NCBI GenBank assembly: GCA_945913255.1 | Contig: CAMEDC010000002.1 | Coordinates: forward strand, 1-64,000 | Origin: an uncultured Lachnospiraceae bacterium | Lineage (GTDB): Bacteria > Bacillota > Clostridia > Lachnospirales > Lachnospiraceae | DNA: 64,000 nucleotides | Direction of reading: 5' to 3' | The notes under the pieces: generated by a model | What the model was told of the DNA's origin: nothing | Database searches by the model: none | Seen by the model: only the letters and a program-made list of their open reading frames with translations | In this document: positions 48,622 to 63,208 of the stretch, in pieces | Numbering within the stretch: the stretch's first letter is position 1 | How the letters are laid out: every line of letters begins with the position of its first letter | Program-made: the position numbers and the translations under genes

Positions 48622-49293
48622 TCAATCCAACATTTCCTCTTCAATCTGCCGCTTCCAGTCTTTCACGCGCCCCACAATCACCTGTTCCAGTTGTTTCCAT
48701 GGAATCAGCACATCCTCCGCCCTGTGAAGCTGTGGGTATTCCTCCACGAACTCCCAGGTAGGTGTAAAGGCATGTCTTTCGCGGATATATTGTTCCACTT
48801 TTCGGTCAAAATCCTCATCCGTACTCAATCTGTCCTCAAACATGGGTGCAATCAGAAGGCCGTCACTTCCTGCATGCTCCCTGCAGCACCCGTTTCTGTC
48901 CAGGGCAAGCTGAAAATAATGAGGATTCGGCATAAAAGCATGCTTTCCCGGCTGCACGTACAGCACCGGATGCGTCCCTTCAAATTCTGTCTCTCCGGGA
49001 ATCAGCCCATTGAGGAACTTACCGTGAAAGCTGCAAATCAGCCCCACAATATCTCCCTTGCTGTCCACTCGCACAAACGCATGTTCCAGATCATAAAGAT
49101 GCTGAATATCAAAATCGTAATAAAAGGCGTACTCAATCACACTCTCCCCCGGCTCCATCTCGAGAAAAAGTCTGCAGGAATGACTTTGCGCCTTCTGATG
49201 AAACACCGTATAGCCTACCGCTACCAATGGATACGGCTCTGCCCTGTCATACTTCAAATGAGGAACATATTTTTCCACAAATGCTTCAATCAT
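48622..49293 (-). CDS. Unknown 223-residue protein of the glycan locus
   Basis: Not recognised. The protein is soluble, rich in aromatic residues and His: VAVGYTVFHQKAQSHSCRLF, VIEYAFYYDFDIQHLYDLEH, LICSFHGKFLNGLIPG and QPGKHAFMPNPHYFQLALDR. The alternating hydrophobic pattern predicts mostly beta structure in residues 20-140 and helices in the last 60. The DIQHLYDLEHAFVRVD segment faintly recalls DUF946/Vps62-type proteins. It overlaps the 555-residue gene by four bases and the MFS gene at its end, so the three are translationally coupled. A role as a sugar-modifying or binding enzyme is only a guess. Confidence 0.7.
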   Translation of the reverse strand: MIEAFVEKYVPHLKYDRAEPYPLVAVGYTVFHQKAQSHSCRLFLEMEPGESVIEYAFYYDFDIQHLYDLEHAFVRVDSKGDIVGLICSFHGKFLNGLIPGETEFEGTHPVLYVQPGKHAFMPNPHYFQLALDRNGCCREHAGSDGLLIAPMFEDRLSTDEDFDRKVEQYIRERHAFTPTWEFVEEYPQLHRAEDVLIPWKQLEQVIVGRVKDWKRQIEEEMLD

Positions 49294-50957
49294 TTCTTTT
49301 CAAACTGACTCCTTTTGTTTCGGATTTCTATCGTATGGTCAAAGGCTGTATAGTCAGTGAGATACAGCGTTGCAGCCCCCACTGTTTTTGCCTCACTGTC
49401 CTCCTTCCCCTCTGTGAAGTGGTGTTCGCCAAAGCAGGGACCCACTATCAGAGCGTCCTCACCATTGCCCACCTCGGTATATCCCTTCTTTATCACCAGT
49501 ACCTCGCTGCCGGAAAGCGGCATGTCCATATACTCATTTGTCAGGAAATTCACCCCTGTAAATGCCAGTTCAATTCTCCAGGGTGCTCCTTCCACACCGG
49601 AAGTTTTCACACGGATATCTGCCCCGTTCTCCACTTCCTTCACCCATACATCAATCTGCATGTCCGGACCCAGCTTTTTATCTCTGGAAGCATTATCCAT
49701 TTTCCACCAGTCACTTGTCTCCGGTTTTTCGGCAAACGGAAGGTAATACCAGCCCCGCATGGTCTGCGTCAGATGATATTCTTTCTCCGACAGTCGCTCC
49801 ATTTTCTCGCTCCGAAACGCCCGGTGCTCACAAAAACTTCCAGCCACCTTCATCTCCAGCTTCATGGTTCCATTGTGCAGATAAAAGAAATTGGATTTTC
49901 CGTTCATAACCGTCCAGGTAAACCGTCCCTGTTGTCCTCTGGCAATGCCGGATTCCTCGTAATAAACCGCAAAATCGGGACGAATATAGCTCCCTTCATA
50001 TTCCAGACTGCGATACTGGGGATAAAGCATATACCAAATCAGGAAATCAGGGGATGTGATATGCTTTTTGTCCACAATTTCAAAAATGGAATTACACATC
50101 TGCAGGAATTCCGGAATCTCGTATTTGACGCCCATGCGCAGATATTCCATGTAATAATCTTTCGGGAATACCAGCCTGTCCTTGTCAAAACGGGTAGAAT
50201 TGGCAGTAAACACGCTGTCGTCCGGCTCCCAGTAGGTCAGCATCATTTTCAGATTACGTACAGCATTTTTCTCGTAGGAATCATCTCCCGTTGCTTCGGA
50301 CAACATAATCATGGCATCGTTGTTGATGCGGTTATAGTTTCCGGCAGATTTCTCCGCAAATTCTCCGTCCTCATTACAGTCGATACCTTCGTTCAGATAG
50401 ACATAAGCCGCTTTTTCCATCTCCTTGCACGCAAACAGCCTGCTGCATAGCATCAGCACAGAAGCGATAGCCCAGCGATGGTTCGGCGTATGGAAGCCGC
50501 CCTCTAAAAGTCCATAAGCGCCTGAACGCACAATCGTCTCCACCTGTTCCAAAATTGCCTGCTCCCCATCGGGCAGGTTATCCTTCGTTGCCTTTCCTGC
50601 AAGGTATTGATAGACAGGAAGCAGCTTTTTAATGCAGAAAGCAGTATCGGGCGCCGAGGAAAAGTTGCAGGTTATATAATCAAAAAGCCCGTTTTCGTGC
50701 TGCACCCTTCTCACATAGGACAGTCCCAGTAGAATTCTCTCCAAAACCAGATGGTCATGGTAATATGCCGTATCCTCATTGCAGTACGCCGCTATCATAG
50801 ACGCAACACGATAAATGGCAAATTTCGCCTGCACAATTCCCGTAGGATCGGCAAATCCTCCATATCTTGGGCTTTCTTTGTCCAGTATCTGAATCTGTAA
50901 GGACTTTACTACCCTGTCCTGCGTATCCTGAATCATTTTTCTGTAATGTTTTTCCAT
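49290..50957 (-). CDS. Large alpha/alpha-toroid-like protein, possible cytoplasmic polysaccharide lyase
   Basis: The 555-residue protein has no signal peptide. Residues about 1-330 are helical with motifs seen in alpha/alpha-barrel carbohydrate enzymes (GFHTPNHRWAIASVLMLCSR, AGNYNRINNDAMIMLSEATG, YYMEYLRMG). Residues about 340-555 are beta-rich (GQQGRFTWTVMNGKSNFFYL, TQTMRGWYYLPFAEKPET, KSEV-like strands). This two-part layout, with NHRW and N-x-x-x-D-A segments, resembles heparinase II/III or alginate-lyase families, but no family is certain. It sits with GH105, which acts on the unsaturated products of lyases, and that supports a lyase role. Confidence 0.65.
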   Translation of the reverse strand: MEKHYRKMIQDTQDRVVKSLQIQILDKESPRYGGFADPTGIVQAKFAIYRVASMIAAYCNEDTAYYHDHLVLERILLGLSYVRRVQHENGLFDYITCNFSSAPDTAFCIKKLLPVYQYLAGKATKDNLPDGEQAILEQVETIVRSGAYGLLEGGFHTPNHRWAIASVLMLCSRLFACKEMEKAAYVYLNEGIDCNEDGEFAEKSAGNYNRINNDAMIMLSEATGDDSYEKNAVRNLKMMLTYWEPDDSVFTANSTRFDKDRLVFPKDYYMEYLRMGVKYEIPEFLQMCNSIFEIVDKKHITSPDFLIWYMLYPQYRSLEYEGSYIRPDFAVYYEESGIARGQQGRFTWTVMNGKSNFFYLHNGTMKLEMKVAGSFCEHRAFRSEKMERLSEKEYHLTQTMRGWYYLPFAEKPETSDWWKMDNASRDKKLGPDMQIDVWVKEVENGADIRVKTSGVEGAPWRIELAFTGVNFLTNEYMDMPLSGSEVLVIKKGYTEVGNGEDALIVGPCFGEHHFTEGKEDSEAKTVGAATLYLTDYTAFDHTIEIRNKRSQFEKK

Positions 50958-51002: not shown

Positions 51003-51956
51003 TTACTCCCTGCACAGAAACAGTTTTGCCGCACCGATAATGCCTGCGTCATTGTCCAGCTTTGCCACCACAAGCTTCGTGTTTTCCGTGGAATATCTGG
51101 AGTATATTTTATTTCTCATCTTTTCCCGGACCAGCGGAACCAGAATGTCCCCCGACCTGCTGATTCCCCCGCCTATGCACAGAAGTTCCGGCTGCAGAAA
51201 GTTGACAATATTGGCAAGTCCCTCGCTCAGATATTCCGCATATTCCTCCACGACACGGATCGCCGTCTTATCACCGGCACGCACCGCATCAAACACCAGC
51301 TGCCCGTTTATTTTGTCAGGGTTCCCGTCACAGAGTTCCCAAAGCAGACTTTTTTTCTTTTTCTCCATGGCTTCTCTGCTCTGCGCGATCAGCGCTTCCG
51401 CAGAAGCATATGCCTCCAGACACCCCCGCCTGCCGCAGTTACAGGGAATTCCATCGTACCGTATCGTCATATGCCCCAGCTCGGCTGCCGCATAGTTTAT
51501 ACCCCGAACAAGCTTTCCGTTCATAATAATACCGCCTCCGACACCCGTCCCCAGAGTCACCATCACAAAGGAATCCGGCTTCTTTTTAAAGCACAGGTAT
51601 TCTCCCCATGCCGCCGCATTGGCATCATTTTCAAAATATACCTTTTTGGAAGTCTGTCCCTGCAACAGCTGCCGTATATTTCCCTGACAGTTCGGCAGAT
51701 TATTGGCGTATTCAATCCTTCCCGTCTTCCGGTTTGCCGTCCCCGGCACTCCTACTCCGATGGAATGTACCCGTCTCTCCGAAATACCGCTCTCCGCAAG
51801 CAGTTCCCTTGCCAGTTTTACCAGCTGTTTCGATATGGCCTTTGCCGTCAGTTCCCTGTCAGTTGCAATGGTCTTTCTCGCCACGATTTTACAATTTCTG
51901 TCAACAATTCCGGCAGTGATACCTGTTCCGCCCACATCAATTCCGATATCATACAC
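51003..51956 (-). CDS. ROK-family sugar kinase
   Basis: The 317-residue protein starts at a GTG (VYDIGIDVGGTGITAGIVDR) after GGGTGAGACAGGC. The ATP-binding ASKHA fold shows DIGIDVGGTG, FENDANAAAWGEYL, MVTLGTGVGGGIIMNGKLV and the ROK zinc motif CNCGRRGCLEAYASAEALI. There is no helix-turn-helix, so it is a kinase and not a ROK repressor. Likely substrates are glucose, mannose or an N-acetylhexosamine released by the neighbouring glycosidases; mannose fits best because GH38 lies directly upstream (18 bases). Confidence 0.92.
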   Translation of the reverse strand: MYDIGIDVGGTGITAGIVDRNCKIVARKTIATDRELTAKAISKQLVKLARELLAESGISERRVHSIGVGVPGTANRKTGRIEYANNLPNCQGNIRQLLQGQTSKKVYFENDANAAAWGEYLCFKKKPDSFVMVTLGTGVGGGIIMNGKLVRGINYAAAELGHMTIRYDGIPCNCGRRGCLEAYASAEALIAQSREAMEKKKKSLLWELCDGNPDKINGQLVFDAVRAGDKTAIRVVEEYAEYLSEGLANIVNFLQPELLCIGGGISRSGDILVPLVREKMRNKIYSRYSTENTKLVVAKLDNDAGIIGAAKLFLCRE

Positions 51957-51974: not shown

Positions 51975-54900
51975 CTATATTTCCAGCATAAGCGTCTTAA
52001 TTTCAAACGCCCTGAATTTCAATTCGGTTCTGTAGTTTTTCAGTTCCAGTTCTTCCTGTTTTTCCTCCAGCATATTACAGGAAAAAATGCGTTTTACATT
52101 GCCGGGAACCGAAAGGATTGTTGTTCCGGCACACCCCTTTGATTCATAGAGTCTGAGAACCACTCCTCTTTTCTCATCAAATGCCGGCTTACAGGTCTCA
52201 AGAATCGTGTGACCTCCTTCCAGCCGGAAAAAGGATACACAGTTAAGCTTCTGTACTGCTGGTTCTCCCGTCTTCTCCCATGTGCCCGCATAGCATTCGC
52301 ACATTGGCGGCTCCACACCTTCGCATACCGTCACCGGTACATTACACTCATATGCCTCCTCCGTTACTCTGCTGTACACAAAAGGCCCGGAAAACGGCAG
52401 AATGGAATAGGTAAATCGATGGCTTCCCTGGTCTGCTGTCATATCCGGTATGACCGGTGCCCGCAGCAATGTCAGAGACATTGTGCTGTCCCTGGCAGAC
52501 AGACCGTATTTACAGTCATTGAGCAGTGCAAGACCGTTCTCTCCGTCCGTCAGTACAGCATATTTGTGATGGCAGGTTTCGTACAAATCCTGTTCATACT
52601 GTCTGGATTTGTGCGTAGGACGCCGTATATATCCGAACTGAATCTCATCCAATACCTCTTTCGTATAGATCGTCGTCGGGAAATCCACCTTCAAAATCCT
52701 GTGGCGCTCGTGCCAGTCAATCTCCGTGACGAAATCAATTCTGGGGCTGTCCGTGGCAAAATGAATTCTCTGGCACACAGTAAAGTTGTTTTCCCTGCGT
52801 TCAACTGTGACGATGATGCCTCCCTGCAGATCACGCTCCGCCAGGAAGCTGCTTTCCCCGCAAAGTTCATCCGGAACCTGCTCATACATCCTGCCAAGCT
52901 CCCAGGCGTCATATGCCACATTCACATCCTTATAGAGCTTCCAGTCATTCAAAGGAGCCGCAGCATACTCATACCCCGTTTTTCTGTCGGTCAGGCTGGT
53001 GATTCTGCCCAGGGAATCCACCTCTGCCCGATAGTATTCATTTGTAAATACCAGCTGACTGCCGGGGAAAGGATCCGATTCCTCTGACGGCTGCACAATA
53101 TCTGCTTCTGTCACCACTCTGTAACCACAGGCGGGGAGTTTTAAACCTCTGTAGGTTCTCTCCCAGCTTAAGGAGTTAAAACACGCCGTAGTGCTACCCG
53201 TCAATCTCAAAAGCAATTCCTCTGCCAGAAGCCTGCTTTCTTTCTCGACTGCCGAAAGCGCCTCACGCGCTTCTTCATTGACTCTCTGAATGGAACTTCC
53301 GGGAAGGATATCATGAAACTCCTGTAAGAGCAGCTCTTTCCAGAGTTTTTCCAGGGTCTCAAGGACTTCCTCTTCTGTCCTGTCTTTACCGTTTTGCTGT
53401 TCCAATTTACCCGTAAGCCGCAGCAGTCCCGCCAGATACTCTGCTTCCCGCAGCGCATACTCCGCCTTACGGACACCCTTCTTAATTTCCGCTTGTGCCG
53501 TATAGGTTCCCCGGTGCCATGCCAGATACAGTTCCCCATAATAGACATTCTCAACATTACCCGGTACCTGTCGTTCAAAAAACGCAGCGGGGCTCTCCAT
53601 ATGGCATCTGGGAGCGCCTTCCAAATCAACGCACCGCCTGGCTGTCTCCAGCATCAGTTCTGTGGGGCCTCCGCCTCCGTCACCATACCCAAAGGGAAAC
53701 AGCAACCCGTCAATATTTTCTTTCTGGTTTCGGTCCTTCTCCCAGCGTTCTCTGAGTGCACCGGAAGTAAATACCGCATTGTTTTTCTTATAAATATGGG
53801 ACAGAATCCTGGTTCCGTCTATGCCCTCCCACCAGAATACATTGTACGGGAACTGTTCACATTCCGGGTCACAGCGCAGCAGCTTTTGAGTAGCAAAATA
53901 AGGGACACGACAACCTGCCATAATCTGGGGAAGCGCTGCCGTAAATCCAAAAGTATCCGGCATCCAGGCAACACGGCTGTCCACACCGAATTCCTCCTGA
54001 AACCAGCGTTTTCCCAGTACAAACTGGCGTATCAGGCTTTCACCGCCCGCCAGATTCGTATCGCTCTCCACGTAAACCGCACCCTCCGGTACAAACTGTC
54101 CCGTCTTTACCTTTTCTTTTACCTCTTTATAAAGCCCGGGATAGTATTCTTTCAGGTTTTCCAGTATCGGCGGCTCGCAGAGCAGAAATTTATATTCGGG
54201 ATATTTTCGCATCAGGGCAAGCTGATTCGAATAAGTTCTCGCGGATTTCCTCCTGGTCTCACTCAGAGTCCAAAGCCATGCCAGATCCAGATGGGACTGA
54301 CCGAACACGGTATAATCCGGCACGGTATCCCCATTTCTTTTTTCCAGAAGAGGTTTTAAGATTTCGCCCCCTCTTTTGATACTCTCACTGCGCATCGGTT
54401 CATCCGCTTCAAAATCCGCTACGTAAGTAAATTCCTGAAGTGCCTGGCCAATCTGCATGGTTCGCAGTTCGCTCTCGGGAAGTTCTTTCCACAATTCATA
54501 TAACGTATGGTAATCCGCATAAACCTGAAACACAGCTTCATTCCAGATACCGAAGTGGCTCTCCTCCACTCTGCACTGGAATCGGGGCGGTTCCGGAATG
54601 GGTATATCTGTCCTGGTATAGATACCGCCGTTTTCCAGTCTCGGTCCATGTCCGGCATATCCCTCTGCCCAGATTTCAAAAGTTTCACCAGGTACAGCAT
54701 TCTCTGTGAGTTCCACGAAATGATGCTGTTTGTCAATAGAACCAGCCTCCCTTCCATTGACAAATACCAGCATTTCAGAGCATGCACCCAAATGCAGAAA
54801 AATTCTCTTTCCCGCTGTTTCCACCGGCATAACTGCTCTGGTACAAAACCACCCGTATTCCCATTTTTCACCCCAGAGTTTTCCCTCCGGGAAGGCATAC

Positions 54901-55049
54901 AACTCCCTCTCAGACGCCTCTTCCCGACTGAGCGCATTATAAGTTGTAAAACCGGATAAACTCACAGTGCCCAGCTTCCGGTAAAGATTCGGCAGAAACG
55001 CCTCATCCCATATTTTCAGTCGTTCCTCCCACTGTCTCCCAAGCTTCAT
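51975..55049 (-). CDS. GH38 alpha-mannosidase
   Basis: Releases alpha-linked mannose, using zinc. From the second ATG (55049, after ATGGAGGTTGCG) the protein has 1024 residues and no signal peptide. The catalytic domain shows the zinc-binding FGQSHLDLAWLWTLSETRR and the nucleophile Asp in RVAWMPDTFGFTAALPQIM. The mid-domain helices hold LLLQEFHDILPGSSIQRVNE. The C-terminal half is the usual beta-sandwich (SLGRITSLTDRKTGYEYAAA). Length fits bacterial cytoplasmic GH38. It lies between the ROK kinase and the HAD-GH105 gene. Confidence 0.95.
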   Translation of the reverse strand: MKLGRQWEERLKIWDEAFLPNLYRKLGTVSLSGFTTYNALSREEASERELYAFPEGKLWGEKWEYGWFCTRAVMPVETAGKRIFLHLGACSEMLVFVNGREAGSIDKQHHFVELTENAVPGETFEIWAEGYAGHGPRLENGGIYTRTDIPIPEPPRFQCRVEESHFGIWNEAVFQVYADYHTLYELWKELPESELRTMQIGQALQEFTYVADFEADEPMRSESIKRGGEILKPLLEKRNGDTVPDYTVFGQSHLDLAWLWTLSETRRKSARTYSNQLALMRKYPEYKFLLCEPPILENLKEYYPGLYKEVKEKVKTGQFVPEGAVYVESDTNLAGGESLIRQFVLGKRWFQEEFGVDSRVAWMPDTFGFTAALPQIMAGCRVPYFATQKLLRCDPECEQFPYNVFWWEGIDGTRILSHIYKKNNAVFTSGALRERWEKDRNQKENIDGLLFPFGYGDGGGGPTELMLETARRCVDLEGAPRCHMESPAAFFERQVPGNVENVYYGELYLAWHRGTYTAQAEIKKGVRKAEYALREAEYLAGLLRLTGKLEQQNGKDRTEEEVLETLEKLWKELLLQEFHDILPGSSIQRVNEEAREALSAVEKESRLLAEELLLRLTGSTTACFNSLSWERTYRGLKLPACGYRVVTEADIVQPSEESDPFPGSQLVFTNEYYRAEVDSLGRITSLTDRKTGYEYAAAPLNDWKLYKDVNVAYDAWELGRMYEQVPDELCGESSFLAERDLQGGIIVTVERRENNFTVCQRIHFATDSPRIDFVTEIDWHERHRILKVDFPTTIYTKEVLDEIQFGYIRRPTHKSRQYEQDLYETCHHKYAVLTDGENGLALLNDCKYGLSARDSTMSLTLLRAPVIPDMTADQGSHRFTYSILPFSGPFVYSRVTEEAYECNVPVTVCEGVEPPMCECYAGTWEKTGEPAVQKLNCVSFFRLEGGHTILETCKPAFDEKRGVVLRLYESKGCAGTTILSVPGNVKRIFSCNMLEEKQEELELKNYRTELKFRAFEIKTLMLEI

Positions 55050-55108
55050 CGCAACCTCCATTTACGGTCATGGCGCCGAAAAACTATTCGTTTTCCGACG
55101 CCTTAATC

Positions 55109-56731
55109 CTAACACATACTCCTATACTCCGATAAAAACAAAATTGCCAGCGCCTGTCCGTAGGGCATAGACTTCAACGCAATCTGTTTATAAAATTCCT
55201 TTGTTTCCCGTCCCATGGGCGTACCGTAGGACACCTGGTTTACCACGCCTGTATCCGAAATACAATCAAGGACGGCCGGCAGTGCCTTCTCGGCTACCTG
55301 AAGATAGGATTTTTCCAGCAGTCCGTCTCTGACTGCTTTTAAAATGCCGTATGCAAATCCACAGGTCGCACTTGCCTCCACATAGGAATCCGCATCATCC
55401 ACCAGGGTGTGCCACATACCGTTCTCCGCCTGGTATTTCTTTAGGCTCTCCGCCTGTTCCCGCAGGGTATTGACAAGCATTCTTCTGACAGGTTCACTGC
55501 ATTTACTGATAGACAGGAATTCCGGAATCGCCATGGTTATCCAGCAATTTCCTCTGCCCCAGAAGGCCTCCGCAAAATTGTTCTTCTCCTTAAATGTCCA
55601 GCCATGATACCACAGCCCTGTCACCTTATCGCACAGATATTTCTCATGAAGCAGGAACTGATACTCCGCCTCACCTGTCATCTCATCATTCTTCAGAATA
55701 CGCCCCATATTTGCCAGGAAAAGCACCGTCATATACAGAGTGTCATCCCAAAGCTCCTGTTCATTGACAGAGTCAGAAGTTTTATGTTGAAAACCACCCT
55801 CTTTTGTACGAGGGAATTCACACATAATCTCTCTTGCTGCCACCACACAGGGCTGCATATATTTCTCTTCTCCGGTATACTCCGCCAGAAAAGACATCGC
55901 CAGATAGGGGGCCGCCGTATTGACATTCAGTGCCGGAAAACCAATTGCAATCTGCCTGTCATAATATTTCTTTAAGGTATCCAGATAACTCTCTTTCTTT
56001 TCCTTTTGAAACAGCTTCCAGAGACCATAGAGGCCAACGCCCTGCGTCCACTCCCAAAACTGGTACCGGGACAGGTCATCTCCCGCCAGATTATGACTCT
56101 CCATATTTTTCAGAAACGTTTCATCCGGTTCATAAAGGATACCGGAAAAAGCTTCCACCATCTTATCAATCTTTTGTTCAAGCTTCTCCCCAAGCTTCTT
56201 TTTCTCAGCGCACTCCCGTTCCAGCCTGTCAATCAGTTCTTTCAGTTCTTCCGGTGTTTTTACTGTATAATCCGGCTGCCAGTCCGGCTCTTCAACCGCA
56301 TGGAAATAGCGGGGAGACCAATCCAGCCAGATAGAGGTAAGACCGAATCGGTTTGCTCCTGCCACATCCTTCTTTAAATTATTCCCAATCATAACAATAT
56401 GAGGTTTATCCGCATCCGTCAGTTTCATTTTCTCCATGGCAGTGCGGAACATGCTGGCTGCGGGTTTCTGCTCACCAACCACCTCAGACACGATCCATTC
56501 CTCAAAGCAGCTGCCCAGTCCGTTCTTTCGGTACACATTCTGAAAAGACTCCCACTCCCCGTCTGCCACCAGGGCAATCCGATATCCCTCTTCATGAAGC
56601 GACTTCAGAACATCGCCGGCACCGGGTATCAAGTCAGCCTCTGTCACAATCCCTCTTTCATCAAAGACCTGACTGCCTTCGTCAATAATGGTATCGCCGC
56701 TGTCCGTGAATATTATCAGGTTCTTACTCAT
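55109..56731 (-). CDS. HAD-like domain fused to GH105 unsaturated glucuronyl hydrolase
   Basis: Residues about 1-170 form a HAD-like domain: LIIFTDSGDTIIDEG, IALVADGEWESFQN, VVGEQKPAASMF and IVMIGNNLKKDVAGANRFGL. The possible nucleophile Asp and the Lys of motif III remain. The second motif I Asp is Gly, the motif II Ser/Thr is Ala, and the motif IV GD is GN, so phosphatase activity is doubtful. A charged helical linker (about 175-210) leads to a GH105 alpha/alpha barrel: EQELWDDTLYMTVLFLANMG with the WDDT motif and AFWGRGNCWITMAIPEF, where the usual RGNGW is RGNCW. GH105 removes unsaturated uronic acid residues left by lyases. No signal peptide. Confidence 0.85.
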   Translation of the reverse strand: MSKNLIIFTDSGDTIIDEGSQVFDERGIVTEADLIPGAGDVLKSLHEEGYRIALVADGEWESFQNVYRKNGLGSCFEEWIVSEVVGEQKPAASMFRTAMEKMKLTDADKPHIVMIGNNLKKDVAGANRFGLTSIWLDWSPRYFHAVEEPDWQPDYTVKTPEELKELIDRLERECAEKKKLGEKLEQKIDKMVEAFSGILYEPDETFLKNMESHNLAGDDLSRYQFWEWTQGVGLYGLWKLFQKEKKESYLDTLKKYYDRQIAIGFPALNVNTAAPYLAMSFLAEYTGEEKYMQPCVVAAREIMCEFPRTKEGGFQHKTSDSVNEQELWDDTLYMTVLFLANMGRILKNDEMTGEAEYQFLLHEKYLCDKVTGLWYHGWTFKEKNNFAEAFWGRGNCWITMAIPEFLSISKCSEPVRRMLVNTLREQAESLKKYQAENGMWHTLVDDADSYVEASATCGFAYGILKAVRDGLLEKSYLQVAEKALPAVLDCISDTGVVNQVSYGTPMGRETKEFYKQIALKSMPYGQALAILFLSEYRSMC

Positions 56732-56761: not shown

Positions 56762-57792
56762 TTAATTTCCGTTGTCTGCCGTCTCCTCGTAGTTGAAGCC
56801 TCTCAGCATCAACTCCTCTGCATAATGGCATGCCACATAATGTCCCGTCTCTATTTCGCGGTATTCAGGTGCCGCCTCCTTACATTTATCCTTACAATAA
56901 CGGCATCTTGTGTGGAAATAGCAGCCGCTGGGCGGATTTGCGGGATTCGGAATCTCTCCTGCAAGAGGGATTCTGTCCAGTTTAATTTCCGGGTCTGCTA
57001 CAGGAACCGCCGACATCAATGCCTCCGTGTAGGGATGTCTTGGTCTGGTAAATAAGCTCTCTGTCTCCGCATATTCTACCATTTTTCCCAGATACATCAC
57101 ACCCACTTTATCGGAAATATGTTCTACTACCGACAGATCATGTGAAATAAAGATATAGGTCAGGTTCATCTCCCTCTGCAAGTCCTTCAGAAGATTAATC
57201 ACCTGGGCCTGGATAGACACATCCAGAGCGGAAACTGCCTCATCACATACAATCACTCTGGGTTTCAGCACAAGCGCTCTTGCAATGCCGATACGCTGTC
57301 TCTGTCCACCCGAGAAGGCATGGGGATACCGCTTGAGATAGCTGACGTTTAAGCCCACCTTTGCCGCGATGTCCATCACCTTTTCTTCCATCTCTTCCTT
57401 ACTCATCTTTGGGAAATTCGCCATCAAAGGCTCCTTGATAATGTCCACAACCGTCATTCTGGGATCCAGGGAGGAATAGGGATTCTGAAAAATCATCTGA
57501 ATATCCTTCCGCAGTTCCTTCATTTTTGCCTTGTCTATGGTCAGGAAATTCACTGGCTCTCCCTCTGCCGGATAGTACATTACTTCTCCGCTCGTGGCAG
57601 GAATTGCACGCACCACGCATCGTCCCATGGTCGTTTTACCACAGCCAGACTCTCCGACAATACCGATTGTCTCACCTTCATTCACCTCAAAGCTGACATC
57701 GGACACCGCATGAACGCAAACCTTTTTGGAGGGGAAATCCTTCGTCAGATGATTGATTTCCAATATTTTTTTGCATCTTCACTTTTAGACAT
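56762..57792 (-). CDS. oppF: Oligosaccharide/oligopeptide ABC transporter ATPase OppF, A7-tract frame break near the start
   Basis: Second ATPase of an Opp-type importer. It has Walker [18 protein letters not shown], the Q-loop [15 protein letters not shown], the signature [15 protein letters not shown], Walker [15 protein letters not shown] and the OppD/F C-terminal Cys motif [14 protein letters not shown]. The best start is the ATG at 57792, which overlaps the oppD stop after GAGGAAGAGG and reads MSKSEDAKK, but after the run of seven A (57766-57772) that frame stops. One more A would give [20 protein letters not shown] in frame with the rest. The track start is a TTG at 57763 without a ribosome binding site. 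Slippage, mutation and sequence error are all possible. Confidence 0.9.
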
Positions 57793-58870
57793 CCTCTTCC
57801 TCTCCCTTCCTGTTTTCTGTTGTCTGCACACCCTGACTGCACCCTTTGCAGCCGCCTGCGCAGGCATGGCACGCCACCATATGCCCGTCTGACATTTCCG
57901 TAAGTTCCGGCTCCTTCACATTGCAGACACCTTCGATCCTCTTGTGGCATCTGTCATAGAAACCGCATCCCGGAGGCAAATTCAGTGCCAACGGAACCGT
58001 ACCTTCGATGGAAAACAATCTCTCCTGATTTTTTGTTCCAATTTTATGCACGGAACCAATCAGGCCCTGGGTATACGGGTGCATGGGATTCGCATAAATA
58101 TCCTTAACCGGAGCAATTTCCACAATCTTTCCCAGATACATGACTGCCACTCTGTCACACATGGCTGCAACAGTACCCAAATCATGGGTAATGAATAAAA
58201 TCGCCATGTTCAAATCCTTCTGCAGTTCCTTCATCAGTTCCAGAATCTGTGCCTGAATGGTAACATCAAGAGCAGTCGTAGGTTCATCGGCAATCAGAAG
58301 CTTGGGATTACATACCAGCGCCATGGCGATTAAGGCTCGCTGGAGCATACCGCCGGAAAACTCATGAGGATACTGGTCATATCTTTTTTCCGCATTGGCA
58401 ATCCCCACTTTTTTCATCATTTCCAGGGAAATTTCCTTTGACTTCTTCTTATCCTTTGTGATATGAAGTCTGGTACATTCATTAATCTGGTTCCCGATTG
58501 TATAAAGCGGCGAAAACGCCACCATGGGTTCCTGGAATACCATGGAAATCTGTTTTCCCCGAACCTCCCGGATTTCCTTTCCCTTGGGTTTTAAATCCAA
58601 CAGGTTCATCATTCCGTGGTCATTGGTGTCAAATATTATTTCGCCGGTGGTCTTGCACTTTTTGTCATTGATTCCGAGAATGGCCTTGCTGGTAAGGCTC
58701 TTTCCACAGCCGGACTCTCCTACCAATCCAAGGGTTTCACCCTTTCTGATACTGAAATTGACCCCGCGTACCGCAGTGAGCGTTCCTTCATCCAGTTCGA
58801 TATTGATTTTCAAATCTCTGACATCCAGAATCAAATCCTGTTGAGAAGATTTTTCTATTTTTTCACTCAT
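57785..58870 (-). CDS. oppD: ABC transporter ATPase OppD
   Basis: The start MSEKIEKSSQQDLILDVRDL (ATG at 58870, after GGAGAAGGGAAAAAGAT) gives 361 residues. It contains Walker [36 protein letters not shown], the signature FSGGMLQRALIAMALVC, Walker B LLIADEPTTALDVTI and the C-terminal CGFYDRCHKRIEGVC cluster that binds Fe-S or metal in this subfamily. The C-terminus is unusually Cys/Gly-rich (HACAGGCKGCSQG). It pairs with OppF to power the importer. It follows oppC by 19 bases. Confidence 0.95.
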   Translation of the reverse strand: MSEKIEKSSQQDLILDVRDLKINIELDEGTLTAVRGVNFSIRKGETLGLVGESGCGKSLTSKAILGINDKKCKTTGEIIFDTNDHGMMNLLDLKPKGKEIREVRGKQISMVFQEPMVAFSPLYTIGNQINECTRLHITKDKKKSKEISLEMMKKVGIANAEKRYDQYPHEFSGGMLQRALIAMALVCNPKLLIADEPTTALDVTIQAQILELMKELQKDLNMAILFITHDLGTVAAMCDRVAVMYLGKIVEIAPVKDIYANPMHPYTQGLIGSVHKIGTKNQERLFSIEGTVPLALNLPPGCGFYDRCHKRIEGVCNVKEPELTEMSDGHMVACHACAGGCKGCSQGVQTTENRKGEEEDV

Positions 58871-58889
58871 ATCTTTTTCCCTTCTCCGC

Positions 58890-60032
58890 TTACTTATAAG
58901 GGTCAGCTGCATCTCTGAGTCCGTCACCCAAGAAGTTGAATGCCAGAACAGTGACAACAACCGCAATCAGCGGAATCAATCTCCATGGATACTGGGCAAT
59001 ACTGGTGATATCCTGCGTTTCCTTCAACAGAACACCCCAGCTGGTAGCCGGTGCTCTCATTCCCAGTCCCAGGAAACTCATGGATGTTTCGCCGATAATC
59101 ATGCTGGGAATTCCCAGAGTCAGATTGACAATCAGATAACTCATAAACCCGGGAACCAGATGCTTTGTCATAATCTTCCAGGTGCTGACACCCGCAACCT
59201 GGGCCGCCATTACGAACTCCTCGTTTCTCAGGGAAATGAACTTTCCTCTTACTGTTCTTGCAAGTCCCGTCCACGAGATAAAGGAGATGATTACCGTTAT
59301 GTACAGGTACATTCTCGGTACCGGAATATCCGCTGGAATTGCCGCGGAAAGTGCCATCCAGAGAGGGATGGTGGGAAGCGCTGTCAACACCTCGATAATT
59401 CTCTGGATAATGGTATCAACCAGACCTCCAAAATATCCGGATATACCACCGAGTATGATACCAAGCACGAAGCTGATTGCAGTACCTGCAAAAGGAATTG
59501 TCAGGGAAATCTGGCTGCCGAACAAGATACGGGAAAACAAATCATTTCCCAGACTGTCGGCCCCGAACAGCATAATCTTCGCACCTTCTCCGCCGTTTTC
59601 ACCCTCTACTTCAAACAGATGTCTGCTGCAGGGAATGAAACCAAAAAGCTTATATTCGCGACCTTCGGCAAAGAATTTCACAAAAAATTTCTCACTGGTA
59701 TCCTCTGCCCACTCACGCTTAAACGTCTGACGATTGTTGACATAAGTCATCTTGTAGACATAAGGTCCTACAAATTTTCCATCTTCATCTTTCCAGTGTA
59801 TTTTGGTAGGCGCGCTGTTCTTATAATTACTGTCGTAGTCATCCAGTCCATAGGGAGCAACAAAGGGTGCAAACAGAGCCATCGCATAAAGGAAAACCAG
59901 CAATATGATACTGAATTTTGCAAGCTTATGATGCATCAGCTTTCTGCCCATCAGCGTCCATTGGGAAGCGAGATAATAGTCTTCATCTGATTTTTTCTTT
60001 TTCTTATGTTGGAATAACGTAGATATGCTCAT
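58890..60032 (-). CDS. oppC: ABC transporter permease OppC
   Basis: The 380-residue permease begins with the OppC N-terminal segment and a first helix (FSIILLVFLYAMALFAPFV), then an extracytoplasmic loop of about 110 residues (SAPTKIHWKDEDGKFVGPYV to FEVEGENGGEGA), then five helices and the EAA-type ATPase-contact loop (EEFVMAAQVAGVSTWKIMTK). The large loop exceeds that of ordinary dipeptide permeases and is common in systems with big substrate-binding proteins. It follows oppB by three bases. Confidence 0.94.
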   Translation of the reverse strand: MSISTLFQHKKKKKSDEDYYLASQWTLMGRKLMHHKLAKFSIILLVFLYAMALFAPFVAPYGLDDYDSNYKNSAPTKIHWKDEDGKFVGPYVYKMTYVNNRQTFKREWAEDTSEKFFVKFFAEGREYKLFGFIPCSRHLFEVEGENGGEGAKIMLFGADSLGNDLFSRILFGSQISLTIPFAGTAISFVLGIILGGISGYFGGLVDTIIQRIIEVLTALPTIPLWMALSAAIPADIPVPRMYLYITVIISFISWTGLARTVRGKFISLRNEEFVMAAQVAGVSTWKIMTKHLVPGFMSYLIVNLTLGIPSMIIGETSMSFLGLGMRAPATSWGVLLKETQDITSIAQYPWRLIPLIAVVVTVLAFNFLGDGLRDAADPYK

Positions 60033-60035
60033 AAG

Positions 60036-61034
60036 CTAACTCCTCTTCTTCTCAAAACGAATTCTGGGATCCAGCCATGCCAGCAGGATATCGGAGAGCA
60101 GCGTACCAATTACCACCAGAACTGCCTGGGTCATCAAAATCGTACCCGCAAGATAGGTATCCTGAGTTTTCAGCGCTTCATAAAGCACCGGCCCCTGAAT
60201 GGACAGATTCATAACGATTGCCGAAATTGTAGAACCGGAAAAAATGCTGGAGAGAGAACCTGCCAGTCCGCTGGCCACCGGATTCAAAGCCGCTCTCAGA
60301 CAATATTTATACACAATCGTTCTCTCGGACACGCCTTTCGCCCTGGCCGTCAATGCATACTGCTTCGCCTGTTCGTCCAGCATTTGTGCACGTACAGTAC
60401 GGATGACTCCACAGGTTCCCGCCGTACCGATAACGATTGTAGGAATTACCATACGCTGTAAAAATTCACCGAAGTTATACCAGTGAAGCCCCTCCTGCAG
60501 CATTTCCGTGGAAAACAGTCCCAGCAGCGGGTCGCCTGTCCACTTGAAGGAAAAATACATCAGGATAATCGCCAGCAAAAAATTTGGTGTTGCCATACCA
60601 AGAAATCCGATTGCTGTAAACACGTAATCGCCCACGGAATACTGGTGCAAGGCACTGTAAATACCGATTGGTATCGACACAAGATATGTAAATACCATGA
60701 TTGTCAACGAAACCGCTATGGTCAGCCAAAGCCGCTCCATAATAACGCTCCAGACAGGTCTGCCATATGCAAAGGAATAACCAAAATCACCCTTCGTGAC
60801 AATCTTTATCACCCAGTCAAAATAACGTGCCACCCAATTCTTATCAAGTCCGTACTGTGCTCTCAGAGACGCTATATCCTCCTCGGTGAAAACCTCACCT
60901 TCGGCCTGCATTCTGGCAATATAGCTTGACACGTAGTCACCTTCCGGCAGCTGCATGATAAAGAAAATCACGAAAGAAATGATAATAATGGTGGGTATGA
61001 ACATTAATATTCGTTTTCCGATATATTTCCACAT
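60036..61034 (-). CDS. oppB: ABC transporter permease OppB
   Basis: The 332-residue permease has six helices starting ILMFIPTIIIISFVIFFIMQ and the family signature with QYALTARAKGVSERTIVYKY as the ATPase-coupling loop. GDFGYSFAYGRPVWSVIMER and ALNPVASGLAGSLSSIFSGS are typical of OppB/DppB. It forms the channel with OppC. The gap to oppA carries a stem-loop. Confidence 0.95.
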   Translation of the reverse strand: MWKYIGKRILMFIPTIIIISFVIFFIMQLPEGDYVSSYIARMQAEGEVFTEEDIASLRAQYGLDKNWVARYFDWVIKIVTKGDFGYSFAYGRPVWSVIMERLWLTIAVSLTIMVFTYLVSIPIGIYSALHQYSVGDYVFTAIGFLGMATPNFLLAIILMYFSFKWTGDPLLGLFSTEMLQEGLHWYNFGEFLQRMVIPTIVIGTAGTCGVIRTVRAQMLDEQAKQYALTARAKGVSERTIVYKYCLRAALNPVASGLAGSLSSIFSGSTISAIVMNLSIQGPVLYEALKTQDTYLAGTILMTQAVLVVIGTLLSDILLAWLDPRIRFEKKRS

Positions 61035-61124
61035 GAAGTCATACTCTCCTTTTCTGAGTACAAAGAAGCAAAAAGTGCTTTACACATTGCATATTTTGCT
61101 TTTTTCTTTCAATTTTTTTGGTAA

Positions 61125-61169
61125 AGAAAGACAGATTCCTTTTTGAGAGCAAAAAGGAACTGTCTTTCT
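61125..61169 (-). terminator. Intercistronic hairpin between oppA and oppB
   Basis: AGAAAGACAG-A-TTCCTTTTT and AAAAAGGAA-CTGTCTTTCT pair around GAGAGC. On the minus strand TTTACC and, further on, an A-rich tract follow. A partial terminator or mRNA-stabilising hairpin here would let the binding protein be made in excess over the permeases, as in many importer operons. Confidence 0.75.
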
Positions 61170-61198
61170 CCTATAATTACAACCTAAATCCCGTGCTT

Positions 61199-63208
61199 CT
61201 ATTCTGCAAACCAGCAGCAATCAATGTGTGCAATGCCAAGTCCACGGTACTCATCGGAGAACATCTCCACATCAGGGAAGTTCTGAAGCTTGCTGTCAAC
61301 AGTAAACAGCGTTGCTGCAGATTCCATATAACCGATAACCCAGATGTTTTCCTCATGCAGTTTATACATCTTGTCAACAATCTCAGCCCTCTTTGCGGAA
61401 TCGGCCTCTGCCTTCAGCTGATCATACAGATTGCACAGTTCAAGCAAATCACCTGTAGGTGCAACACCTTCTGTTCCGCCGGAAGCGTACCAGGTACCAA
61501 TCTCGCCGTACCACTCTGCATAATTTCTGACAGGAACCAGGGTATCGGGTCTGAGTCCCAGACTTACTGTCTCAGCAGGAGCAACAGGGCTCAATACTGC
61601 ATCATATTCATTGGAAATAATGTTGTTGTTCAAAGTATCCTTATCCATAGTCTTATAAGTCGTCTTGATGCCGATTGCATCCCAATACTTATTCAGAACC
61701 TGATAAGTTGCATCAGCGCCGGAATCGGAATAGCTCAGAATATTGAGTACGAAATCTTTACCGTCTGCCAGATCATAGTAACCGTCTTTACCCTTTACCA
61801 TGCCAAGGCCTTCCAGTAAAGCCTCTGCAGCTGCAGGGTCATACTCGGTCCATTTGGTTGCCCAGCTCTCGCTGTAACCTAATGCGCCCTCTGCAGGAGC
61901 TGCCTGACGGCCAGACTGCCATCCATCGGAAATCAGCTTGGAATACTCGTCACGGTCAACTGCGATGGAGAGTGCCTGTCTGAATTCCTTCGTCTGGAAC
62001 AGTGCTCTGTAGTCCTCATCGGGAGCGGTCTGGTTCAGTTCCAGCTGGGATGCAGCATCCGCCCAGGAGCTGTTCGGCCACTGTACAATGCGGTATCCGA
62101 CACTTTCTGCATTCTCGGTCAGAGTCTCAATATCGTTCCAGCCTGCATCCGCAATGGTAAGTTCGCCTGCCAGAGTCTTAATCATAATCTGGCTAACATC
62201 GGAAATCTTGGTGTACTCAATCTTATCCGTATAGGGCAGCTGCTGTCCGTTCTGGTCTACCTTCCAGTAGTAAGGGTTGCGCACATATTCAAAATAATCT
62301 CCGTTTGTATCGTTCTTTCCTGCCTCAGTTGACAGTACATAAGGATTCAGAGTCGGGATGCCGGAAACATTCCAGAAATAATACCCTGTCTCCTTACCCA
62401 TGGTAGCAACATCGGCAAATCCCATTTCTTCTGCCTTCTTCTGCGCAGCATCGTCACCGATGAACTCGGGAAGAATGGTTTCCATATAATGCTTGGGCGC
62501 ATAACACCATTTTGCGTTGATACACAGCTCGTTGATGAAATTAGGCTTGGAAGCCTCAAAGCTTACCGTAAAGGTTGTATCATCCACTTTTGTAAAGGTT
62601 GCAATTGACTCGTTGCCGTCTGCATCCGTCGCTTTAAAGCAATCCCAGAGAGACTTGCCAAATGTCTCAGGCACACACATATGATCATAAAAGAAGACAC
62701 AATCCTCAGCTGTGAAAGGCTCACCGTCAGACCACTTCATACCTTCGCGGAGATGAATGGTATAAACAGTTGCATCTTCATTAACATCATACCCTTTTGC
62801 AACATTGGGTTCTACCTCACCTGCACTGTTGAAGCGGAACAGTCCCTGCTCAATGGGCTTACCGGTATTCCAGCCTGCTTTGGTAAGAGCCATTTTTATG
62901 GATCCGCCATACTGTCCTACACTGGCAACATCCTCTACCATCACATCATCTGCGCTCGGGATACGCTCCTCCACTGTGGGAAGGCTACCTGCACTTACCT
63001 GTTCCGCCAGCATGGGTGCCTCGCTGAAAGCACTCACGGGCTCTGCAGGAGTTTCGGAAGAAGCCGCCTGGCTTCCTGCCTCACTGGATGAAGCAGCAGG
63101 AGTACTTGATGCAGCCGTTTCACTGCCGCCGCATCCGGCCAGTGCCGTTACGCACATTGCTGCGGAAAGAAGAACTGCTGCAAGTTTTTTGCTTACATTC
63201 TTTTTCAT
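61199..63208 (-). CDS. oppA: Opp-type substrate-binding lipoprotein
   Basis: The 669-residue protein starts with a lipoprotein signal MKKNVSKKLAAVLLSAAMCV followed by the lipobox ALAGC, then a Ser/Ala/Glu-rich linker of about 40 residues. The SBP_bac_5 fold shows GMKWSDGEPFTAEDCVFFYD, AGWNDIETLTENAESVGYRI, FRQALSIAVDRDEYSKLIS and VLSPVAPAETVSLGLRPDTL. It is about 100 residues longer than typical peptide-binding OppA. Genomic context with GH105, GH38 and GH-like genes suggests an oligosaccharide ligand and not peptides. It is the first gene of the operon. Confidence 0.93.
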   Translation of the reverse strand: MKKNVSKKLAAVLLSAAMCVTALAGCGGSETAASSTPAASSSEAGSQAASSETPAEPVSAFSEAPMLAEQVSAGSLPTVEERIPSADDVMVEDVASVGQYGGSIKMALTKAGWNTGKPIEQGLFRFNSAGEVEPNVAKGYDVNEDATVYTIHLREGMKWSDGEPFTAEDCVFFYDHMCVPETFGKSLWDCFKATDADGNESIATFTKVDDTTFTVSFEASKPNFINELCINAKWCYAPKHYMETILPEFIGDDAAQKKAEEMGFADVATMGKETGYYFWNVSGIPTLNPYVLSTEAGKNDTNGDYFEYVRNPYYWKVDQNGQQLPYTDKIEYTKISDVSQIMIKTLAGELTIADAGWNDIETLTENAESVGYRIVQWPNSSWADAASQLELNQTAPDEDYRALFQTKEFRQALSIAVDRDEYSKLISDGWQSGRQAAPAEGALGYSESWATKWTEYDPAAAEALLEGLGMVKGKDGYYDLADGKDFVLNILSYSDSGADATYQVLNKYWDAIGIKTTYKTMDKDTLNNNIISNEYDAVLSPVAPAETVSLGLRPDTLVPVRNYAEWYGEIGTWYASGGTEGVAPTGDLLELCNLYDQLKAEADSAKRAEIVDKMYKLHEENIWVIGYMESAATLFTVDSKLQNFPDVEMFSDEYRGLGIAHIDCCWFAE

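Follow-up and report, generated by a model that had tools for sequence, protein, structure and literature searches.

The window, a 64,000-nucleotide stretch of contig from an uncultured Lachnospiraceae bacterium, encodes on its minus strand a protein that joins a haloacid dehalogenase-like (HAD) domain to a GH105 glycosidase domain. An ABC importer is encoded upstream of this gene and several predicted catabolic genes downstream, all within one putative operon.

48622 to 49293, minus strand: 223-aa protein of an unnamed family
49290 to 50957, minus strand: 555-aa protein, lyase-like only by weak similarity to the PL8 N-terminal domain (Lyase_8_N, E = 0.011)
51003 to 51956, minus strand: ROK-family sugar kinase (PF00480, E = 8.6e-67; TIGR00744, 260.6 bits against a cutoff of 260.35)
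51975 to 55061, minus strand: GH38 alpha-mannosidase-like protein, a conserved downstream neighbor in the same putative operon (PF01074, E = 2.5e-67; PF07748; PF09261)
55109 to 56731, minus strand: HAD-GH105 fusion gene
56762 to 63208, minus strand: upstream ABC importer, recognized from its open reading frames, with two ATPases, two permeases, and a 669-aa solute-binding protein

Within the fusion gene, the following features can be distinguished.

56207 to 56731, minus strand: HAD domain of the capless (C0) type, residues 1 to 175 (PF00702/PF13419, AlphaFold, Foldseek)
56690 to 56704, minus strand: altered motif I, residues 10 to 14 (DSGDT), with Gly12 in place of the second Asp
56558 to 56569, minus strand: altered motif II, residues 55 to 58 (VADG), with Ala56 at the Ser/Thr position
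56462 to 56467, minus strand: motif III, Lys89-Pro90, kept
56366 to 56386, minus strand: altered motif IV, residues 116 to 122 (GNNLKKD), with Asn117 in place of the first Asp and Asp122 kept
56135 to 56254, minus strand: linking helix, residues 160 to 199
55112 to 56188, minus strand: GH105 domain, residues 182 to 540 (PF07470, PDB and Foldseek matches), its extent also being put at about residues 182 to 536
55742 to 55744, minus strand: putative general acid Asp330, equivalent to Asp143 of YteR
55541 to 55555, minus strand: RGNCW loop, residues 393 to 397 (Arg393 and Trp397 correspond to Arg213 and Trp217 of YteR)

The open reading frame list and the translation show an unbroken frame of 540 amino acids from ATG to stop. 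As an earlier note on this DNA had proposed, this single frame combines a HAD-like and a GH105 domain: PF00702 and PF13419 match residues 12 to 135 (E = 9.7e-14 and 2.8e-13, respectively), and PF07470, the Glyco_hydro_88 model, which covers both GH88 and GH105, matches residues 220 to 538 (E = 1e-91). The charged helix that the note saw between the two halves is also present in the AlphaFold model of the whole protein (pLDDT 92.3, pTM 0.84), where residues 160 to 199 form a single helix that bridges them. In split-gene relatives, the alignment places the HAD/GH105 boundary at about residue 175, indicating that the linker is the last HAD helix continuing into the first GH105 helix.

The search for the same architecture across genomes found full-length fused forms in 24 loci, namely the window and 23 others with 63 to 82% identity, from many genomes, which rules out a missed stop or an assembly error as the source of the fusion. 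The two halves are thus not separate proteins in the genome of the window, although they are encoded by adjacent genes in 13 relatives. The frame contains in-frame ATG codons at residues 191 and 210, with no obvious ribosome-binding site seen just 5' of either, and an internal start may yield a separate GH105 protein. A literature search of limited coverage found no paper on a HAD-GH105 fusion, so that the architecture is apparently undescribed. The gene is a genuine conserved fusion, but a derived one, of two neighboring operon genes.

The GH105 half is closest to the solved structures 3pmm, 3qwt, and 4xuv. Its PDB matches include 3pmm/3qwt (E = 6e-93) and YteR (1nc5, E = 7e-27), and Foldseek recovers 3pmm (E = 1.3e-32) as well as YteR and 4ce7. 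It shares the fold and the catalytic residues with 3pmm, 3qwt, 4xuv, and YteR/YesR; none of the solved GH105 matches carries a HAD domain. Residues Asp143, His132, His189, Trp211, Arg213, and Trp217 of YteR align with Asp330, His316, His376, Trp391, Arg393, and Trp397, respectively. Wherever a GH105 row of the alignment extends over the Asp330 site, it keeps the W-x-D-T motif, and Asp143 of YteR has been reported to be important (PMC4528949). Trp228 and Asn271 stand where YteR has Tyr and Asp88, and the same replacements have been reported for YesR and RhiN (PMC4528949). The RGNCW loop, previously taken for a departure from the usual form, carries no signal: NCW is the norm of the clade, found in 22 of 29 rows, with NSW in 6 and NAW in 1, which rules out an altered active site at this position. 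Judged by these residues, the GH105 half is an intact and probably intracellular unsaturated-uronyl hydrolase. The NCBIfam model NF051900, named "beta-galactosidase BglB," matches this clade (436 bits; cutoff, 420). This name is treated here as doubtful, since both the uronyl-hydrolase residues and the neighboring KduI and kinase genes (see below) point to unsaturated uronides; a literature search for its source, including the Agrobacterium BglB, found nothing useful. A distant second GH105/GH88 paralogue, with 27% identity, is encoded beyond the importer, just outside the window (G000:C2:65588-66427).

The HAD half modeled alone (pLDDT 92.7) has the HAD Rossmannoid fold with the squiggle and flap, the flap hairpin spanning residues 16 to 34, and contains no cap insert. 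It has 324 PDB matches at E ≤ 0.001, and the top ones listed are without exception HADs or proteins designed from a HAD scaffold. Its pocket residues, placed by alignment and not from the model coordinates, are exactly as had been read from the sequence: Gly12, Ala56, and Asn117 are replacements, and Asp10 and Lys89 are kept. Whole-genome and contig searches yielded a subfamily of 84 nonduplicate members from Lachnospiraceae, other Clostridia, Treponema, and Paenibacillaceae. In place of the canonical motif I, DxDx[T/V], this subfamily has D-S-G-D-T, and in place of GD...D in motif IV, it has G-N-N...D; no homologue has a complete motif set, as the second Asp of motif I and the first Asp of motif IV are absent from all 84. 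The canonical Ser/Thr of motif II is replaced by Ala in 83 members and by Val in 1. The canonical Lys of motif III is retained throughout, and Asp10, Gly12, Asp13, Thr14, Asp57, Gly58, Lys89, Pro90, Asn117, and Asp122 are each found in 84 of 84 members, being among 28 positions that are invariant across two phyla. This fixation shows that the motif changes do not represent decay; the altered motifs are a fixed trait of the subfamily and not an oddity of the window gene. In 12 fused pairs, pN/pS is 0.10 to 0.20 for the HAD part and 0.15 to 0.30 for the GH105 part, ratios that are rough because synonymous sites are close to saturation. The HAD part is under purifying selection and at least about as constrained as the GH105 half.

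The subfamily is sharply bounded: the next-scoring HADs reach 50 to 68 bits, compared with at least 200 bits for its members. Wherever their motifs are readable, nearly all of these outside HADs have DxDxT, TNG/SNG/TDG, and GD; one protein (locus L123) has DLGKT together with SNG and GD. No HAD model of NCBIfam reached its cutoff with the window gene. Among stand-alone members, none did so with the one at L074, and only the broad TIGR01549 (25.5 bits; cutoff, 23.3), among the 25 matches listed, did so with the one at L182. The window HAD scores far below the cutoff of TIGR02253 (CTE7; 78 versus 170 bits) and fails that of the L-2-haloacid dehalogenase model TIGR01428 (46.6 versus 125.4 bits), in addition to having no cap in the model. 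The subfamily is a divergent one, without a named family among those searched, and the HAD half belongs to this unnamed capless group with its own conserved noncanonical pocket (D10-S-G12-D-T14 / A56-D57-G / K89-P / G-N117-N...D122).

The HAD is fused to GH105 in 24 of the 84 loci and is encoded directly beside a separate GH105 gene in 13. In 9 more, five of them Treponema-type clusters, the two lie some genes apart in the same locus, and the remaining 38 have no GH105 nearby in the stretch examined, for some because the contig ends. A quick tree, rooted by choice on Paenibacillaceae and with many weak branches, has free-standing HADs forming the Paenibacillaceae and Treponema branches and the fused ones nested among those of Clostridia. 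The branches outside the fused group consist of free-standing copies, and the starred branches of the tree imply that the fused label changed three times or more. Of 26 genomes in which the HAD is free-standing, 10 gave no GH105-like match at E ≤ 1e-20. Conversely, 10 of 12 genomes with a close unfused GH105, their completeness not being stated, had no HAD of this subfamily. An SBP_bac_5-type importer, the type to which we presume from the look of its sequence that the 669-aa protein belongs, is encoded in 41 of the 84 HAD loci and in none of 25 GH105-only control loci, a comparison that is indicative, as the two sets were gathered by different queries. In Clostridia, Treponema, and some of the Paenibacillaceae, this importer family is a conserved neighbor of the HAD. 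The HAD therefore seems to go with the importer and the operon type rather than with GH105 as such. It is also absent from control clusters in which this GH105 occurs together with the lyase-like protein and GH38, indicating that the GH105 step can proceed without it. In two Acetatifactor metagenome-assembled genomes, a HAD of the subfamily is instead fused behind two Nudix domains (L093:6762-8555 and L098:6972-8546, from putative start sites). Several Paenibacillaceae genomes (L182 to L201) encode DUF5054 GH38-like proteins, as well as membrane proteins of the MgtC family, close to the free-standing HAD.

Two of the downstream genes are harder to place. The 555-aa protein recurs in 18 of the 24 fused loci, and its family has invariant His, Asn, Tyr, and Arg residues. 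No Pfam family scored above its cutoff (chondroitinase AC, E = 0.37), and a search of the genome for classical PL8 enzymes gave no match, but neither did the positive-control query. No obvious signal peptide was seen by eye, so that this protein is perhaps an intracellular oligosaccharide lyase. The 223-aa protein, which has no Pfam or NCBIfam match, recurs with the HAD in 21 of the 84 HAD loci and in none of the 25 GH105-only loci. Its family has many invariant polar residues (D.DI.H.Y.LEH, SFHG, and QPGKHA) and is also found at L074:11505-12215, L165:8404-9084, and L198:6165-6908. Searches for solved relatives of these two proteins gave no significant match. KduI (PF04962) and a PfkB-type kinase are encoded near the fused loci L037 and L043, consistent with catabolism of 4,5-unsaturated uronates. 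Taken together, the operon looks like one for the intracellular breakdown of uronate- and mannose-containing oligosaccharides: the ABC importer would take up the oligosaccharide, GH105 would release a 4,5-unsaturated uronate, GH38 would remove mannose, and the ROK kinase would phosphorylate a sugar.

We consider it somewhat more probable than not that the gene is a derived fusion of a GH105 hydrolase and a HAD pathway protein that belongs to the same route and is not a standard Mg-dependent phosphatase. The HAD would bind or act on a small metabolite of that oligosaccharide route by using Asp10 and Lys89, and the fusion would merely link two proteins of one route. A standard Mg-dependent phosphatase is unlikely, since other residues stand in place of the acid/base Asp, of the Ser/Thr that binds phosphate, and of one Asp that binds the metal. 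To call the domain noncatalytic, as the earlier note did, nevertheless goes too far, given the invariant nucleophile Asp10, Lys89, and Asp122, although the invariant pocket residues could also mark a binding (sensor) site. A more specific version, in which Asp10 and Lys89 carry out a nonphosphate reaction of a sugar acid, or of a sugar-acid adduct, from the uronate route, is a long shot; if true, this type of reaction would be new among capless HADs, and in Lachnospiraceae the HAD would be fused to an enzyme that generates its substrate or acts before it is formed.

The most serious competitor, which we nonetheless find doubtful, is that the HAD still works, by a relaxed chemistry, as a phosphatase or phosphotransferase and dephosphorylates a sugar phosphate of the pathway. 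Asn117 would aid in Mg binding, a backbone NH of motif II would bind the phosphate, and Asp13 or Asp57 would serve as the acid/base. The invariance of Asp10, Thr14, Lys89, and Asp122 fits this scheme, as does the nearest fold, that of HAD hydrolases (2hoq and YfnB, for example), and a solved protein, 3ib6, also combines DxG[DE]T with a GN motif IV. However, three canonical residues are gone together and fixed throughout the subfamily, and the precedent of 3ib6 is itself without an assigned function. The loss of the acid/base Asp makes phosphatase or phosphotransfer activity less likely, yet possible; P-type ATPases function without this residue.

The suggestion of the earlier note that the HAD is a noncatalytic ligand-binding module through which a phosphorylated sugar (or, in a wider version, an acidic one) would regulate GH105 fares worse, and we regard it as unlikely. 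The replacement of three catalytic positions and the physical fusion through a continuous helix in 24 loci would both suit such a module. On the other hand, the Ala at the phosphate-binding Ser/Thr position speaks against a phosphate ligand. Moreover, most lineages have the HAD as a separate protein, some genomes encode it but lack GH105, and close GH105s exist without the HAD, so that the subfamily does not appear to be a dedicated regulator of GH105. The fused forms may have such a regulatory function, but it is unlikely to be the general role of the subfamily. Finally, a decayed pseudo-domain retained by chance after fusion, to which the altered motifs alone might point, is scarcely credible, being refuted by the invariant positions of the 84 relatives and by pN/pS ratios that reveal constraint like that on the catalytic GH105 half.

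These HAD proteins form a sharply bounded, unnamed subfamily that generic profiles label as ordinary hydrolases despite the loss of three canonical catalytic residues, and bulk annotation of its members as phosphatases deserves doubt. In gut Clostridia and Treponema, the subfamily is linked to the catabolism of oligosaccharides, and Paenibacillaceae have relatives that are free-standing. Both the fusion and the operons name concrete candidate substrates, which makes the function directly testable.

Among known HADs, the best full-length Foldseek match of similar size is 3ib6, a capless HAD from Listeria monocytogenes (TM scores, 0.76/0.74). It shares with the window HAD the Gly at position +2 of motif I (DMGET) and the Asn of motif IV (GNT...D), so that for two of the three changes there is a precedent of known structure, if uncharacterized; it differs in keeping the motif II Ser (SNT), in being unfused, and in having only about 20% identity. 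The highest sequence scores come from the HAD-IA hydrolases 2hoq (PH1655; Foldseek E = 2e-11), YfnB/YjjG, and TIGR02253, which have the same motif III and the same motif IV spacing. However, PH1655 has the full motif set (DLDDT, TDG, KP, and GD), and hydrolases of this type carry a C1 cap, in contrast to the capless window HAD. The L-2-haloacid dehalogenases 1jud/1zrm also match in fold. These enzymes lack the second Asp of motif I and the first Asp of motif IV and retain the nucleophile, the Lys, and the last Asp, but they carry a cap as well as Ser in motif II, whereas the window HAD is capless with Ala.

At the level of the operon, the closest parallel is found in xanthan-oligosaccharide loci, which combine GH88, GH38, and an ABC importer and so have the same hydrolase, mannosidase, and importer functions (PMC10881899, PMC12827396). 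There, the unsaturated glucuronyl hydrolase and GH38 together remove the GlcA-Man side chain from the xanthan oligosaccharides (PMC10881899, PMC12827396), but the hydrolase belongs to GH88, whereas the window operon has GH105. By analogy, a substrate similar to the GlcA-Man of xanthan is a reasonable guess, no more. As for the fusion itself, drimenol synthases likewise join a HAD-like domain to a different enzyme, a terpene synthase domain, and are thought to stem from the fusion of discrete genes (PMC9128629). Their partner and substrate are unrelated to those of the HAD-GH105 protein, and their two domains share one active site (PMC9128629).
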